Positions 1,017-56,416 of a stretch of 64,000 nt of DNA are shown piece after piece. A program made the translations under genes and the position numbers. The stretch is from Solidesulfovibrio sp. (GTDB taxonomy: Bacteria; Desulfobacterota; Desulfovibrionia; Desulfovibrionales; Desulfovibrionaceae), in NCBI RefSeq assembly GCF_029978005.1, contig NZ_JARKOZ010000114.1, positions 1 through 64,000 of the forward strand, given 5' to 3'. How positions within the stretch are numbered: position 1 is the first letter of the stretch; each line of letters opens with the position of its first letter. Below the pieces are notes generated by a model that ran no database searches, had not been told where the DNA came from, and saw only the letters and a program-made list of their open reading frames with translations.

Positions 1017-2075
1017 ATGCGTTACGAGGTCCCGTTCGTGCCCGATGCGGCCTATGCCGCCTTTCTCGCCGACAGCGCCGACAAGGTCGAGGCGGTCTAT
1101 TTCCGCCTGGGGCCGGACACGCCCGACGCTCGGCTGCCCGGGGTGGGCGACGCCTCGCCCGACGCCCTGGCCGAGGGGCTGCGGGCCATGCCCGGCGTGC
1201 CCCGTCTGGGGCTTTTAAACGCCGCCTTCCACGCCCCGGAGGCGCTTTGCGGCGACGGCCTGCGCGATCTCATTTTACTGCTCGAAGGCTACCTGGCGGC
1301 CGATGCCCTCACGGGCATCGTCTACGCCGACCAGTACCTGCTCACGGCCTTGTCCGACGCCTCGCCCGAGGTGGCCGGGGCGCTTTTCGCCGTGCCGAGC
1401 ATCAACTTCCGCCTGGACCGGTTCGCCCGCCTCTCGGCCGTGCTCGAGGCCGTGGCCGACACGCGCTTCAAGTTTCCGGAGGCGGTCATCCTCGACAGGG
1501 ACATCAATCGCGACACCGCGCGCCTGGCCGCTCTGACAGGTCGGGCGCGCGAGGCGTTTCCGGGCCTTCGCTTCGGGCTCATGGCCAACGAAGGCTGCCT
1601 TTTCGCCTGCCCGTTCAAGACCGCCCACGACGCCCACATCGCCCTTTCGCGTCTGGCCTCCTGTCGCATGGGGCCGGACATGAACCGGGACCTGGGCTGC
1701 CTGCGGACGTTTTCCGCCCATCCCGGGAGGATGCTGTCCTCGCCCTTCGTGCGGCCCGAGGACGCGCGCCGCTACGAGGGGCTGGTCGATTTCCTCAAGG
1801 TGTGCGGCCGTACCCGGCCGGCAGGAGACCTCGCCACTATCGCGGCGGCCTATTTCGCGGGCGAGTACCACGGCAACCTGGCCTGGCTGCTGGACACCCA
1901 GGAAATTTTGTCCGGCCGGCTGGAGGTGCCAAACGACGACCTGCCGGCGGATTTCTTCGACCGCACCGACGGCTGCGGCCGCGACTGCCGGGCCTGCCGC
2001 TACTGCGGGGAGCTGGCCGCGCGGATCGTGCGCGAAAGGGAGATGGGGCTGCCGCGTTTTGCGGAGAACGGCTGA
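1017..2075 (+). CDS. U32-peptidase-like / UbiV-like Fe-S protein of unknown function
   Basis: The protein has 352 residues and no signal peptide. Its most telling features are an N-E-G-C-x3-C-P segment (C194, C198) followed by a histidine, and a C-terminal C-x3-C-x2-C-x2-C cluster (C320, C324, C327, C330). The asparagine-glutamate-cysteine-proline pattern resembles the Fe-S-binding region of peptidase U32 / UbiU-UbiV TIM-barrel proteins. I infer a cytoplasmic Fe-S protein and no specific reaction. The start is ATG 1017 with AAGGAG six bases upstream; an upstream in-frame ATG at 978 lacks such a site. It stands alone, divergent from uvrA. Confidence 0.6.
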   Translation: MRYEVPFVPDAAYAAFLADSADKVEAVYFRLGPDTPDARLPGVGDASPDALAEGLRAMPGVPRLGLLNAAFHAPEALCGDGLRDLILLLEGYLAADALTGIVYADQYLLTALSDASPEVAGALFAVPSINFRLDRFARLSAVLEAVADTRFKFPEAVILDRDINRDTARLAALTGRAREAFPGLRFGLMANEGCLFACPFKTAHDAHIALSRLASCRMGPDMNRDLGCLRTFSAHPGRMLSSPFVRPEDARRYEGLVDFLKVCGRTRPAGDLATIAAAYFAGEYHGNLAWLLDTQEILSGRLEVPNDDLPADFFDRTDGCGRDCRACRYCGELAARIVREREMGLPRFAENG

Positions 2076-2177
2076 GGCCGCCCGCCCCGGTCCCGCGACC
2101 TTCGGCGGCGGACTCCGGGGGCAGGGCGCGTCACTGACGCGATCGGCGAAACATGTCGGCGGGTTCGGGTCGCCGGC

Positions 2178-2339
2178 TCACAGCAGGGAGCGGCGGCAGA
2201 AGGCCTCGAAGTCCTCGTCGTCGTCGCAGGGCCGGGCCTCGTCGCCGCCCGCCGGGACCTTGACGGCCTCCTCGCGCCACACGCCTTCGCTCGACTCGAA
2301 AAAGCTGATGTATTCCAGTTGGATGCTCGGTGCGAACAT
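2178..2339 (-). CDS. Small acidic hypothetical protein (53 aa)
   Basis: A short reading frame begins MFAPSIQLEYISFFESSEGV and ends with an acidic stretch rich in Asp and Glu followed by FEAFCRRSLL. The ATG at 2337-2339 has a good GGGAGG ribosome-binding site, which is the main reason to accept it. It has no membrane segment and I recognise no family. It is convergent with the U32-like gene and divergent from the YihY gene. Confidence 0.5.
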   Translation of the reverse strand: MFAPSIQLEYISFFESSEGVWREEAVKVPAGGDEARPCDDDEDFEAFCRRSLL

Positions 2340-2598
2340 GGATCTTCCTCCCTGGTTTCCCGATGTCCCATGCAGGTTCCGTTCCATGGTAAGTCTTGCC
2401 GTGCGGCGCAGATGGCGGTAGCGATTTCGTTACAGTTATGAAATCAAAATTTCCCCCGATTCCCCTATCTCCATGGTCGCCGACCGGGGCCGGACGGTTG
2501 CGGCCGGTTCGGCCGGACGCGCCTTCTTCGCCGTATTTTCCCCGAGGAGAAGGGGGCGCGGGAGGACGCTTTTCCCCCGGGGCCGGGGAGGGGCGGGC

Positions 2599-3525
2599 GT
2601 GAGGCCCGGGAAGCGCCTGGCCGCCGGCGCGGGCCTCGGCGCGGTGGCCGGGGCGGCGCGCCGGGCGACGGCGGAATTCCTGCGCGCCGGCGGCACGGCC
2701 CAGGCCGCCGCGCTGGCCTTTTACGCCCTGCTGTCGTGCATTCCGCTTTTTTTCGTGATGCTCGCCGGATACGGCCTGGTCGCCGGGGAAACCTGGAGCG
2801 CCCAGGTGATGCTGCGCCGCCAGATGGCCGCGCTGGTCCCGTTCCTGGACGACGTGCTGGTGCTGCGCGCCCGTCGGCTGCTGTGGGCCTCGCCCGGCCT
2901 GGGCTGGGCCGGCCTGGCTTTCATTCTCTGGTCGTCGTGGCTGTTCGTGGGGGCGCTCGGCCGGGCTTTGGCCCTGCCCTGGCAGGAGCAGGGCGACGCG
3001 CCCCGGACGTGGCGGCGGCGGCTTTGGGCCGTGGCCAGGGGGCCGCTCGTGGGCGGGCTTTTCGTGGCGGCCATGGCCGCGGCCCTGTACTGCGCCCAGT
3101 TGCCGGCCCTGGAGCCGGCGGGCAGCCTGGCACGCCGTTGCGCCCCGGTCTGGGGCGCGGCCTGCCTGGCCGGGCTTTTTCTGGCCGTGTACCTGCTCTT
3201 TTTGCCCCGGCGGCCGTTTCGGCTCCTGTGCAGCCTGGCCGTCGGGCTGGCCGCCACGGCCTACGGCGTCAGCGCCGCCTTCAGCGCCCTGGTGGCCGGG
3301 CTGCCCCGCTACCATCTGGTCTACGGCCCGCTCAGCGGCGCGATCCTTTTTCTGCTCTGGCTCGACTACAACGCCTGGGTGCTCCTGTGGGGAGCCTGGT
3401 TCGTGCGCGCCTGGCCGGACCGCGGGCCGCCGGCGGGGGCGGGCCGCGTCGTGGCCGGACCGTGGCCGGCGTCGCGGCGACCCGGGCCTACGGCCTGGCG
3501 TAGCGCGCCGCCACGGAAATCGTGA
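2599..3525 (+). CDS. YihY/BrkB-family inner membrane protein
   Basis: This is a polytopic membrane protein of 308 residues. The pattern AAALAFYALLSCIPLFFVML near the N-terminus, several hydrophobic helices, and the late YGPLSGAILFLLWLDYNAWVLLWGA segment are typical of the YihY/BrkB family, which was once mislabelled ribonuclease BN. Its role is unknown. I chose the GTG at 2599 because GGGGAGGGG lies just upstream and because the more upstream residues are low-complexity arginine/glycine. Its last 38 bases overlap the end of queF on the other strand. The tail after about residue 275 is Pro/Arg-rich and may be poorly conserved. Confidence 0.8.
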   Translation: MRPGKRLAAGAGLGAVAGAARRATAEFLRAGGTAQAAALAFYALLSCIPLFFVMLAGYGLVAGETWSAQVMLRRQMAALVPFLDDVLVLRARRLLWASPGLGWAGLAFILWSSWLFVGALGRALALPWQEQGDAPRTWRRRLWAVARGPLVGGLFVAAMAAALYCAQLPALEPAGSLARRCAPVWGAACLAGLFLAVYLLFLPRRPFRLLCSLAVGLAATAYGVSAAFSALVAGLPRYHLVYGPLSGAILFLLWLDYNAWVLLWGAWFVRAWPDRGPPAGAGRVVAGPWPASRRPGPTAWRSAPPRKS

Positions 3526-3925
3526 TGCCGCCCCGAGCGGCGAAATCCCCCGTGACCTCCATCTCCAGCGGCTGGCAGGCGGCCACCAGGTCGTCCAGGA
3601 TGCGGTTGGTGAGCGTCTCCATGAACGTTCCCTCGTCGCGGTAGCTGAAAAGGTAGAGCTTGAGGGACTTCGATTCGATGCACCTCGCGCCCGGCACGTA
3701 GCGGATGGTGATGGTCCCGAAGTCGGGCTGGCCGGTCTTGGGGCAAAGGCTCGTGAACTCCCGGCTCTCGAAGGTCACGGCGTAGCGCCGGTCCGGGTAG
3801 GCGTTGGGAAAGGTCTCGAGCAGCCCGGGCGTCACCGTGGTGGGGTAGGCCGTGGCCCCTTGCCCCAGGGTCCTGAGGCCGCTGACGTCGTCCTTGTGCG
3901 CGTTGGAAGCCGGCGTGTCGGGCAT
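3488..3925 (-). CDS. queF: NADPH-dependent 7-cyano-7-deazaguanine (preQ0) reductase
   Basis: QueF reduces the nitrile of preQ0 to the aminomethyl group of preQ1 in queuosine synthesis. The 145-residue length fits the short, single-domain (type I) enzyme. The nucleophile C61 sits in SLCPKTGQPDFGTITIRY with the catalytic Asp at 68. The diagnostic E-S-K-S-L-K-L-Y motif is at 84-91. The start ATG at 3925 has AAGGAG upstream. It is divergent from queD-queE-queC, so the whole branch from 6-carboxytetrahydropterin to preQ1 is encoded within about 2.3 kb. I see no preQ1 riboswitch in the 121-bp gap; the gap does contain a 9-bp GC hairpin at 3992-4020. Confidence 0.95.
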   Translation of the reverse strand: MPDTPASNAHKDDVSGLRTLGQGATAYPTTVTPGLLETFPNAYPDRRYAVTFESREFTSLCPKTGQPDFGTITIRYVPGARCIESKSLKLYLFSYRDEGTFMETLTNRILDDLVAACQPLEMEVTGDFAARGGITISVAARYARP

Positions 3926-32847: not shown

Positions 32848-35151
32848 ATGATCCACGACAACGTCCTTTCCCTGGTCGGCGCCACGCCGCTGGTGCGCCT
32901 TTCGCGCCTGAACCCCAATCCGGCCGTGACCATCGCCGCCAAGGTGGAAATGCGCAATCCCGGCGGCTCCATCAAGGACCGGGTGGCCCTGGCCATGATC
33001 GAGGCGGCCGAACGTTCGGGCGAGCTCGTGCCCGGCCGGGTGGTCATCGAGGCCACCTCCGGCAACACCGGCATCGGCCTGGCCATGGTCTGCGCGGTCA
33101 AGGGCTACCGCCTGAAGCTCCTCATGCCGGCCTCGGCCTCCCAGGAGCGTAAGCGCATCATGCGGGCCTACGGGGCCGAGATCGTGCTCACCCCGGGCAA
33201 CCTCGGCACGGACGGGGCCATCGAAGAGGCCTACCGCCTGGCCCGGGAGGAGCCCGAGACCTACGTGCTCATGGACCAGTTCAACAATCCCGCGAGCATA
33301 GAAGCCCACTACGCCGGCACGGCCGAGGAGATCTTCGCCGCCACGGACGGGGCCGTCAGCCACGTCGTCGCGGCGCTCGGCACCTCGGGCACGGCCATGG
33401 GCCTGGTCAAAAGACTCAAAGAGTTGAACGCGGCCGTCAAAGTCGTGGCGGTGGAGCCCAGGCCCGGCCACAAGATCCAGGGGCTCAAGAACATGCAGGA
33501 GTCCTATCCGCCGGGCATCTTCGACAAGAAGGCCCTGGACGTCATCGCCACGGTGGAGGACGAGGACGCCTTCGCCATGGCCCGGCGGCTGGCCCGGGAG
33601 GAGGGGCTTTTCGTGGGCATGAGCGGCGGCGCGGCCATGGCCGCGGCGGCCGAGCTCGCCGCCTCGCTCTCCGATGGGCTGATCGTGGTCATCCTGCCCG
33701 ACGGCGGCGAGCGCTACCTGTCCACGAGCCTTTTCGCCGTGCCCGAGAAGAAGGGCCCGGCGCTTTGCGGCGTGGGCGCGGCCGAGCCGGTCTACCTCGA
33801 CCCGGCCGGAGCCGCTCCCGGGTTTTTCACCTTCGGCCCGCCCCTGGCCGCGCCCGGCGACCTGGACGCCTGGCGGCGCATCGTGACCCTGGACGTGCTG
33901 GCCAGGGCTCTTCGGCGCGACGGCGCGCGCCCCACGCTCGCCGTGGGTCTGGCCGACCTCGACGATTCGAGCCTGGAGGCGGCCCGGGCCGAAGGGCTGC
34001 CCTGCCGGGAGTTCGCCGCGAAAAGGCGCGAGCGCGTGGCCGGCCTGGCCGCCTCCCTGGGCGTTGGCGAGGCCCTTTTCCCCCTGGCCGGCGAGGCCCT
34101 GGACGAGGCCCTGGCCATGACGCGAAAGCTCATGGGCAAGGGCCTGGCCTACGAGAAGCTGCGCAGCGTCTATTTCGACGTGGCCCGGGACAAGGCCTAC
34201 GGCCGGCTGCTCGGCCGCGACCTCGGCAAGCTGGCCCTGGGCAAGACCGTGGATCTGCTGGCCTACGCCAAGGACAATCCCCACGACTTCACGCTCCTTA
34301 AAAGGGTGAGCCTCAAGGACCTCAAGGCCGGCGACGCCCTGTCCACGCCCTGGGGCAACGTGCGGCCGAGCTGGTTTCTCCAGATGGCGGCCGCGGCGGC
34401 CAAGGCTTTGCCGGCCGTGACCGTGGCGCTGACCGACGAGGACAAGGCCTTTCCGCACCTGGAGAACCTGCGGGCCATCTGGGCCGTGGGCGCGGGCCTG
34501 GCCCCGGCGGCCTGGCTCATGGGCGGCCGGGTGTCCGGCCGGGAGGGGGAACGGGCGGCCCCGGCCGACCTCGAGGCCTGCCTGGTCCTCGGCGTCCATC
34601 CCCTGGCCGTGCGGGCCTGGCTGCTTTCGGTGGGCTACAAGAAGCCCCTTTCGGCCTCGCCCGAGGCGCTTTGGATGTGGGAGAAAAACCGCAATCGCGT
34701 CCAGGAGTTGGCCGCCACCCTGGGCCTCGTCGGACCGGGCCGGGGCGCGGTCTCGCCCCGGGTCGAGGCCGAGGCGGCGAGCCTGGTCGAGGCCCTGCGC
34801 CTGGCCGTGGACGACGACCTGTCGCTTTTCCAGTTCTGGCCCAGGCTTTTCGCCTTCTGCCGCTTCGCCAACGGGCTTCTCTCCTCGGGCGGGCTGGCCG
34901 GGCCGGACGCCGCGCGCTGCGCCCGGGCCCTGGCCGAGGCGGACGCGGTGCTCGGACTTCTGGACGCGGCCGCCCTGCCCGTGGCCCGGGCCGACTGGCC
35001 GGTCGAGGCCTCGAAGCTGGTGGAGGCGCGCGACGTCGCCCGGCGGGTCAGGGATTTTGCCCGGGCCGACGCGCTTCGCGTCGAGATCGAGACCCTCGGC
35101 TACCGCATGGAGGACGCCGCCGACGGCGTGCGCCTGTTCCCCCTGCGCTGA
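32848..35151 (+). CDS. Cysteine synthase fused to a degenerate cysteinyl-tRNA-synthetase-like domain
   Basis: Residues 1-310 are a complete PLP-dependent O-acetylserine sulfhydrylase: PLP lysine K43 in GGSIKDR, the TSGNTG loop, and a glycine-rich GTSGTAMG loop. Residues about 325-767 follow cysteinyl-tRNA synthetase: FGPPL for CGPTVYD, VTLDVLARAL, LADLDDSSL, GLAYEKLRSVYFDV, PWGNVRPSWF for PWGxGRPGWH, HLENL for HHENE. The HIGH motif is gone (GDLDAW), the zinc cysteines are missing, and no KMSKS is seen. The second half therefore should not charge tRNA. It might regulate the synthase or bind cysteine or tRNA. The frame is continuous. Confidence 0.88.
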   Translation: MIHDNVLSLVGATPLVRLSRLNPNPAVTIAAKVEMRNPGGSIKDRVALAMIEAAERSGELVPGRVVIEATSGNTGIGLAMVCAVKGYRLKLLMPASASQERKRIMRAYGAEIVLTPGNLGTDGAIEEAYRLAREEPETYVLMDQFNNPASIEAHYAGTAEEIFAATDGAVSHVVAALGTSGTAMGLVKRLKELNAAVKVVAVEPRPGHKIQGLKNMQESYPPGIFDKKALDVIATVEDEDAFAMARRLAREEGLFVGMSGGAAMAAAAELAASLSDGLIVVILPDGGERYLSTSLFAVPEKKGPALCGVGAAEPVYLDPAGAAPGFFTFGPPLAAPGDLDAWRRIVTLDVLARALRRDGARPTLAVGLADLDDSSLEAARAEGLPCREFAAKRRERVAGLAASLGVGEALFPLAGEALDEALAMTRKLMGKGLAYEKLRSVYFDVARDKAYGRLLGRDLGKLALGKTVDLLAYAKDNPHDFTLLKRVSLKDLKAGDALSTPWGNVRPSWFLQMAAAAAKALPAVTVALTDEDKAFPHLENLRAIWAVGAGLAPAAWLMGGRVSGREGERAAPADLEACLVLGVHPLAVRAWLLSVGYKKPLSASPEALWMWEKNRNRVQELAATLGLVGPGRGAVSPRVEAEAASLVEALRLAVDDDLSLFQFWPRLFAFCRFANGLLSSGGLAGPDAARCARALAEADAVLGLLDAAALPVARADWPVEASKLVEARDVARRVRDFARADALRVEIETLGYRMEDAADGVRLFPLR

Positions 35152-56341: not shown

Positions 56342-56416
<75 letters not shown>

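Follow-up and report, generated by a model that had tools for sequence, protein, structure and literature searches.

In a 64,000-nucleotide stretch of Solidesulfovibrio sp. DNA (the window), positions 32848-35151 of the forward strand encode a cysteine synthase dependent on pyridoxal 5'-phosphate (PLP) joined to a full-length module resembling cysteinyl-tRNA synthetase (CysRS), all in one frame of 767 amino acids that starts with ATG and is uninterrupted by stop codons. The module has lost the catalytic motifs of CysRS, and the residues with which E. coli CysRS reads the anticodon of tRNA-Cys are among the best kept. We favour, tentatively and in the knowledge that it could well prove wrong, the reading that a catalytically dead CysRS module still binding tRNA-Cys would regulate the fused CysM-like synthase, much as HisZ regulates its partner enzyme.

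The synthase half gave a Pfam PALP match at residues 8-285 (E 4e-71), and the fusion passed the NCBIfam cysKM cut-off (TIGR01136; 363.6 against 344.15 bits). Structure comparison of this half returned E. coli CysM (2v03, Z 43.0) and M. tuberculosis CysM (3dki, Z 42.8), in rows tied with many others, CysK-type enzymes included. Conservation was examined in 168 distinct fusions, collected by similarity to the window protein and not a random sample, against 49 true CysS sequences including that of E. coli, about a quarter of them from Solidesulfovibrio itself. Split or cut copies (L018/L020/L055, L179 and L180) were left out of this set, and L055, L088 and L090, the three of 80 named loci with frames below 735 residues, out of the first motif alignment. 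Lys-43, the PLP lysine expected in this family, the substrate loop Ser-71 to Thr-74 (SGNT) and Gln-144 are present in all 168 fusions. Lys-214, a possible phosphate contact, lies in a GLKN loop that aligns with E. coli CysM without gaps, whereas M. tuberculosis CysK1 has an insertion here. On its sequence, this half is an intact CysM-like cysteine synthase sharing one frame with a CysRS-like module, as an earlier sequence-only reading of the stretch had proposed.

The full-length model (pLDDT, the predicted local distance difference test score, 89.4; predicted template modelling score, pTM, 0.67) was good per domain with an uncertain domain arrangement. A fold search with it listed synthases only, and the CysRS half was therefore modelled separately from an alignment of 70 fusions. 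Residues 305-767 alone (463 residues) were predicted with a pLDDT of 93.4 and a pTM of 0.92. The top Foldseek match of this model was E. coli CysRS with tRNA-Cys (1u0b_B, E 1.4e-26), to which it aligned with a Z of 40.4 over 433 residues (model 1-462; root-mean-square deviation 6.2), compared with a Z of at most 27.0 for methionyl-tRNA synthetase structures. When profiles were compared, 452 columns could be aligned to the CysS encoded elsewhere in the same genome, with 28% identity. In Pfam, residues 342-553 matched the CysRS catalytic domain, class I tRNA synthetase (C), with an E of 3.8e-23, and residues 716-754 gave a sub-threshold match to the anticodon-binding CysS_C family (E 0.0059; 17.1 bits against a cut-off of 23). 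The CysRS fold is predicted across the entire C-terminal half, anticodon-binding hairpin included, in line with the complete-length module that the sequence-only reading had described.

The catalytic apparatus has fared differently. The fusion scores far under the NCBIfam cysS cut-off (96.9 against 340 bits), the HIGH signature is replaced, and the KMSKS motif is absent from a loop in gapped alignment columns. The zinc ligands of E. coli CysRS, which we take to be numbered C28, C209, H234 and E238, are all present in 49 of 49 true CysS; three of them are gone from the Solidesulfovibrio fusion and the fourth, a histidine, is retained, so that the earlier statement that HIGH, KMSKS and the zinc ligands had all been lost holds but for this one residue. 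H206, N66 and T68 are also lost here and mostly in the fusion's group, defined as the 68 fusions with at most one zinc ligand. Judged by profile score, HIGH, KMSKS and zinc quartet alike, the Solidesulfovibrio fusion is not a functional CysRS, and the loss of the same three motifs sets it apart from the cysteine-adenylation site of MshC. The earlier idea that the module binds cysteine or its adenylate, if taken to involve the former active site, finds no support in the Solidesulfovibrio fusion, where these residues and motifs are gone, and fits instead those relatives (67 of 168) in which the zinc quartet is complete.

The degree of loss is graded among the fusions. The full zinc set (CCHE) occurs in 67, two or three ligands in 33, and one or none in 68, while all 49 true CysS combine CCHE with HxG[HN] and KM[SA]KS. 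No fusion (0/168) combines HxG[HN] with both KMSKS lysines; K269, one of these lysines, is retained in four and HxGH in a single fusion, and Q241, invariant in the 49 true CysS, is altered in all 168. Two fusions come closest: L221 carries HLGH with RTSKA, thus the second KMSKS lysine only, and L211 pairs HLGN with KMSRS, the first lysine only, and retains its zinc quartet. Among the 67 zinc-quartet fusions, N66 is found in 67, H206, H224 and H256 in 66, W205 in 64 and K269 in one. From this pattern the catalytic step seems to have been lost early, with the cysteine/zinc pocket preserved in many lineages. The pocket-less rows require two changes on the synthase-half tree, one set comprising 63 rows including the window (FastTree; deepest branches unsupported). 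The fusions may be regarded as a natural series of stepwise synthetase death, in which the second KMSKS lysine is lost almost everywhere, loss of the zinc pocket depends on lineage and the anticodon residues are retained throughout.

In E. coli CysRS, R427, D436 and W432 contact G34 of tRNA-Cys, and D436 and R423 take part in a water network, according to a re-analysis of the E. coli complex (PMC12684709). Alignment pairs E. coli R423, R427, W432, D436, R439 and D451 with R728, R732, F737, D741, R744 and D756 of the Solidesulfovibrio fusion. The G34-reading residues R423, R427, W432 and D436 are thus all represented, position 432 by phenylalanine, an aromatic residue that also occupies it in 28 of the 49 true CysS. 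R423, D436 and R439 are each present in 168/168 fusions; R427 is arginine in 157, lysine in nine and glutamine in two, and position 432 is always Phe, Trp or Tyr. Considering the charged columns conserved in true CysS, those kept at 85% or more in the fusion's group number 5/5 in the anticodon domain versus 9/28 elsewhere (p=0.008), the 85% line having been set after R427 was seen at 88%; at 95% or more the contrast is 4/5 versus 7/28 (p=0.03). An earlier contrast of contact with catalytic positions gave 3/4 versus 1/12 (p=0.03) or 4/4 versus 1/12 (p=0.003) on hand-picked positions, and the charged-column test is the better one. Among the uses that the sequence-only reading had offered for the module, a link to tRNA gains most, the anticodon-reading residues being among the best kept in the fusion's group. 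The fusions also share fixed residues that are rare or absent in true CysS (R344 and R486, each 168/168, and Y473, 167/168); such residues are not expected from pure decay and suggest a gained interface.

Within the genus, 12 of 14 genomes, the window's included, encode an intact homologue of the CysRS half; another has this half split in two frames, and the last (69% complete) has a 59-residue piece only. In the split member (L055; L018 + L020, G010) the break falls within the CysRS half and reflects a frameshift or a sequencing error. At family level, a match to the CysRS half better than 1e-50 was present in 95 of 199 genomes, belonging to 25 of 44 genera, with fusion judged by score and frame length and two of the 95 (G010 and G157) split or partial. 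In the phylum, the match extended into both halves in 94 of 247 sampled genomes (G212 and G308 partial). Among named genomes, a scan picked out 563 candidate stretches encoding some relative, and the best 80 of them were retained; a single frame of more than 735 residues was present at 77 of these 80 loci. Fusion records among the best 80 include Solidesulfovibrio, Fundidesulfovibrio, Pseudodesulfovibrio, Desulfohalobiaceae, Desulfarculus, Desulfocarbo, Desulfobacca, Desulfobacterales, Desulfobulbales, Thermosulfurimonas and one metagenome-assembled genome (MAG) of Pirellulales. In a quick tree of 58 fused and 49 true rows, the fused CysRS halves fell on one side of a branch with full support (SH-aLRT, the Shimodaira-Hasegawa-like approximate likelihood ratio test, 100), and a single fusion event is thus enough for the sample. 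The survey of the architecture that the sequence-only reading had called for thereby found one widespread clade, and a recent local fusion or an assembly artefact was rejected, given the relatives found in genus, family and phylum. The Pirellulales fusion (L129, contig 8 of G437, a Planctomycetota record) carries the full zinc quartet and may reflect transfer, misbinning or an incomplete MAG. A different CysRS-like protein, of HLGN type, was encountered at L229 (G218:C1:592500-596900, positions 1463-3688); it runs into a family 2 glycosyltransferase domain (Pfam PF00535, residues 517-623), and L230 and L233 resemble it by frame length only.

A separate, true cysS whose motifs are all intact lies elsewhere in the Solidesulfovibrio genome (G000:C72), so that the absence of a second cysS, which would have spoken for a charging role of the fusion, was rejected. 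The same genome holds a 46-residue frame at a contig start (G000:C142:1-132) that matches the CysS C terminus at 34 bits. Of the 80 genomes scanned, one (G263) having the fusion only as a contig-cut copy, 77 had another cysS match over cut-off beside the fusion, in a few cases partial; the exceptions without another full cysS are G408 (82% complete), G203 (79%) and G221 (90%, with a 109-residue cysS fragment). No second cysS was found in the Pirellulales MAG. In 61 of the 80 genomes the fusion itself exceeds the curated cysS cut-off, and such fusions therefore risk annotation as functional cysteine--tRNA ligases.

The genomes differ in whether they have other means of making cysteine. Besides the fusion, the Solidesulfovibrio genome holds two cysKM genes and two matches to cysE, the serine acetyltransferase gene (161-168 bits); on contig 64 (L002, G000:C64), a stand-alone cysKM has a serine acetyltransferase frame closely downstream. 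Counting cysKM matches with E up to 1e-50 and cysE matches above 100 bits, the 94 fusion genomes of the phylum sample divide into 38 with both a second cysKM and cysE, 49 with neither, four with a second cysKM only (fragments in G408 and G422, a broken gene in G325, and G323) and three with cysE only (G249, G290 and G336). CysE was detected in 41 of these 94 genomes versus 61 of 77 fusion-lacking genomes taken from the 153 in the same sample (p=2e-6, kinship uncorrected). Judged by these matches, roughly half of the fusion genomes would have the fusion as their only cysteine synthase and no detected CysE to feed it; for this reason the likeliest acceptor where CysE is absent is probably O-phosphoserine, which M. 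tuberculosis CysM reportedly accepts.

We infer a regulatory role for the CysRS half along the following lines. A CysRS paralogue that lost amino-acid activation would grip tRNA-Cys by its anticodon and serve as a C-terminal regulatory module; binding of the tRNA, through its amount or its charged versus uncharged state, would allosterically alter the activity or the assembly of the PLP half, and cysteine output would be matched to the demand of tRNA charging. In relatives with a zinc pocket, free cysteine might be sensed as a second signal. CysE is classically the feedback-controlled step of the pathway, and a sensor on the synthase would make sense where CysE is absent; the CysRS module could then supply the missing feedback control. 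If this is correct, many members of a phylum of sulfate reducers, living in sulfide, control their cysteine output through a sensor derived from a synthetase that no longer charges tRNA, and roughly half of the sampled fusion genomes seem to rely on the fusion as their only cysteine synthase without a serine acetyltransferase.

Several observations weigh against this proposal. Of the 25 columns invariant (97% or more) in both fused and true CysRS, 21 lie outside the anticodon domain, so the anticodon residues could serve the fold or another partner; W458 is tryptophan in only 5 of the 68 members of the fusion's group and Phe or Tyr in 58. Slower evolution of the hairpin as a whole was not seen within the genus, where its ratio of nonsynonymous to synonymous rates (dN/dS) is 0.19-0.54 and particular residues alone are fixed. 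Against ten same-genus sequences, including two pairs of relatives near-identical in value and not independent, a dN/dS of 0.17-0.46 for the CysRS half (0.13-0.29 for the synthase half) speaks for the proposal, but against the more distant Fundidesulfovibrio L058 it reached 0.71 (0.32 for the synthase half). A linked tRNA-Cys gene was absent from the 50 loci scanned and the other 47 loci, and there is no constant operon partner, neighbours varying by lineage. The O-phosphoserine route meets the report, in PMC7311316, of two D. vulgaris strains without recognisable SerACB according to GapMind. Zinc-pocket loss showed no correlation with CysE presence in the 65 genomes with the locus in hand: those with neither a second cysKM nor cysE had 15 full, 19 partial and five lost quartets, those with both had 15, five and one, and the others three full and two partial. 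CysE replacement is moreover inapplicable to the Solidesulfovibrio genome itself and to the 38 genomes with both genes.

The same data bear on the alternatives. If the dead CysRS half merely stabilised oligomers, or docked the synthase to a partner such as the real CysRS, then invariant residues peculiar to the fusions and lying away from the former active site and a fold preserved while neighbouring genes vary would be natural; fixation of R423, D436 and R439 in every fusion would be left unexplained, and we consider such a scaffold unlikely, though worth bearing in mind. A module that binds free L-cysteine via zinc and feedback-inhibits the synthase, tRNA being uninvolved, is suggested by the precedent of HisZ and by the 67 fusions with all four zinc ligands and, nearly always, the pocket residues, K269 remaining in one of these. 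Yet the Solidesulfovibrio fusion is one of 68 that have one ligand or none while their anticodon residues stay in place, loss of the pocket requires two changes on the synthase-half tree, and pure cysteine sensing has no need of an anticodon hairpin, which makes cysteine sensing alone rather unlikely. Neutral decay of the CysRS half into a functionless remnant in the Solidesulfovibrio lineage would agree with the lost zinc pocket and motifs, with a dN/dS above that of the synthase half both in the genus and against L058, and with the split frame of one genus member; it is made improbable by the open frame retained across the phylum sample, the invariant residues, a dN/dS below 1 and the full-length predicted fold.

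Residual or altered chemistry, with some members activating cysteine or ligating it to another acceptor as MshC does, draws on the partial motif sets of L211 and L221, on the many fusions over the cysS cut-off (61/80) and on G408, G203 and the Pirellulales MAG, in which no other full cysS was detected. Not one fusion, however, unites HxG[HN] with both KMSKS lysines, Q241 is altered throughout, the Solidesulfovibrio fusion lacks KMSKS altogether, and G408 and G203 are incomplete genomes, the completeness of G437 not being given; we regard this chemistry as decidedly improbable. In most organisms cysteine synthesis and tRNA charging are carried out separately, according to PMC5424206, a survey of RNA-dependent cysteine synthesis. 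To one further idea we give very little credence: in bacteria lacking CysE, the dead CysRS half would be a docking platform for tRNA-Cys, and the PLP half would make cysteine, or hand it over, in dependence on the tRNA. This would amount to a third coupling of cysteine synthesis with tRNA-Cys, next to CysRS acting separately and to SepRS-SepCysS.

The surroundings of the gene were also surveyed. Rfam models over the window and nine loci returned tRNAs only. In Solidesulfovibrio, a divergent MptE-like gene lies upstream of the fusion, and the gene on its downstream side has no Pfam match. In Desulfobulbales, the fusion gene stands just downstream of the dsrMKJOP genes for the sulfite-reduction membrane complex (clusters of 6-7 loci; dsr family models confirmed DsrK and DsrO in L120 and DsrJ and DsrP in L102), and co-expression with sulfide production is possible at these loci. 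In some Desulfobacterales, a dTMP kinase gene precedes the fusion gene. A non-cognate tRNA-Arg(TCT) gene lies downstream of the fusion at 12 of the 50 loci scanned, all of Desulfobulbales type (L102, L104, L108, L112, L114, L115, L116, L120, L125, L130, L174 and L223). Feature coordinates are collected in the table.

Table. Features of the fused gene and the tRNA-Cys gene in the window (E. coli CysRS numbers at the zinc-ligand positions and for D451).
Feature	Coordinates	Strand	Basis or remark
Whole fused gene, 767 aa	32848..35151	+	Open frame and relatives
PLP cysteine-synthase half, residues 8-285	32869..33702	+	Pfam PALP, cysKM, structure match
K43, expected PLP lysine	32974..32976	+	K in 168/168 fusions
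K214 in GLKN loop, aligned to an Arg of E. coli CysM	33487..33489	+	K in 168/168 fusions
CysRS-like half, residues 305-767	33760..35148	+	Fold model; profile alignment
Zinc-ligand position C28, now F329	33832..33834	+	Alignment to E. coli CysRS
HIGH-equivalent residues 338-341, now DLDA	33859..33870	+	Alignment to CysRS
Zinc-ligand position C209, now M513	34384..34386	+	Alignment to E. coli CysRS
Zinc-ligand position H234, retained as H537	34456..34458	+	Alignment to E. coli CysRS
Zinc-ligand position E238, now L541	34468..34470	+	Alignment to E. coli CysRS
Loop at expected KMSKS site, residues 562-574, motif absent, columns gapped	34531..34569	+	Alignment
Anticodon-binding hairpin, residues 716-754, with R728, R732, F737, D741 and R744	34993..35109	+	Weak CysS_C match; conservation
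D756 (E. coli D451)	35113..35115	+	D in 167/168 fusions, the other at a contig end
tRNA-Cys(GCA) gene, proposed ligand	56342..56416	-	21 kb from the fusion, unlinked

A search of the open-access literature, with most subscription papers and bioRxiv preprints outside it, found no description of the fusion, nor did PMC2922099, PMC10133479, PMC3431258, PMC9437257, PMC9855970, PMC7311316, PMC7140700 and PMC5424206 yield one. Among known systems, CysM and O-phosphoserine sulfhydrylase resemble its synthase half in structure and in the ungapped GLKN loop, but they are stand-alone enzymes. SepRS-SepCysS couples a cysteine-forming enzyme to tRNA-Cys, as described in PMC5424206; for the fusion such coupling is a proposal, the enzymes are others, and SepRS must be active in charging, whereas the fusion has no active charging site. 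The CysRS paralogues named in a review (PMC9437257) are MshC and the CysRS* of Desulfobacterales. MshC, the Cys:GlcN-Ins ligase, shares the CysRS fold (3c8z matches the CysRS-half model with a Z of 38.4) but is an active ATP-dependent ligase according to the same source, while the fusion lacks the catalytic motifs and carries a PLP domain. CysRS* is, like the fusion, a second CysRS-like protein within this phylum; it charges SelC* and is active without an anticodon-binding domain (PMC9437257). The fusion is the reverse, with the anticodon domain kept, the catalytic motifs lost and a synthase attached.

HisZ is the closest in kind. It acts on the first step of its pathway as a separate subunit of class II fold; the fusion, in contrast, has the class I fold, is covalently joined to the last pathway step and retains anticodon residues, and HisZ itself was ruled out because the match is to class I CysRS and not to histidyl-tRNA synthetase (HisRS). 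What the two have in common is a synthetase paralogue without adenylation, connected with the pathway that makes the very amino acid it is named for, HisZ being a regulatory HisRS paralogue that mediates inhibition of HisG by histidine, as described in PMC9437257. By sequence the fusion is of the HisZ type, a paralogue without catalytic motifs tied to the synthesis of its own amino acid alongside a separate active-type synthetase, and it belongs with the dead synthetase paralogues of this sort, not with functional CysRS. Were the proposed regulation by tRNA-Cys correct, the fusion would stand as the counterpart of HisZ among class I folds, with the covalent link as its distinction.

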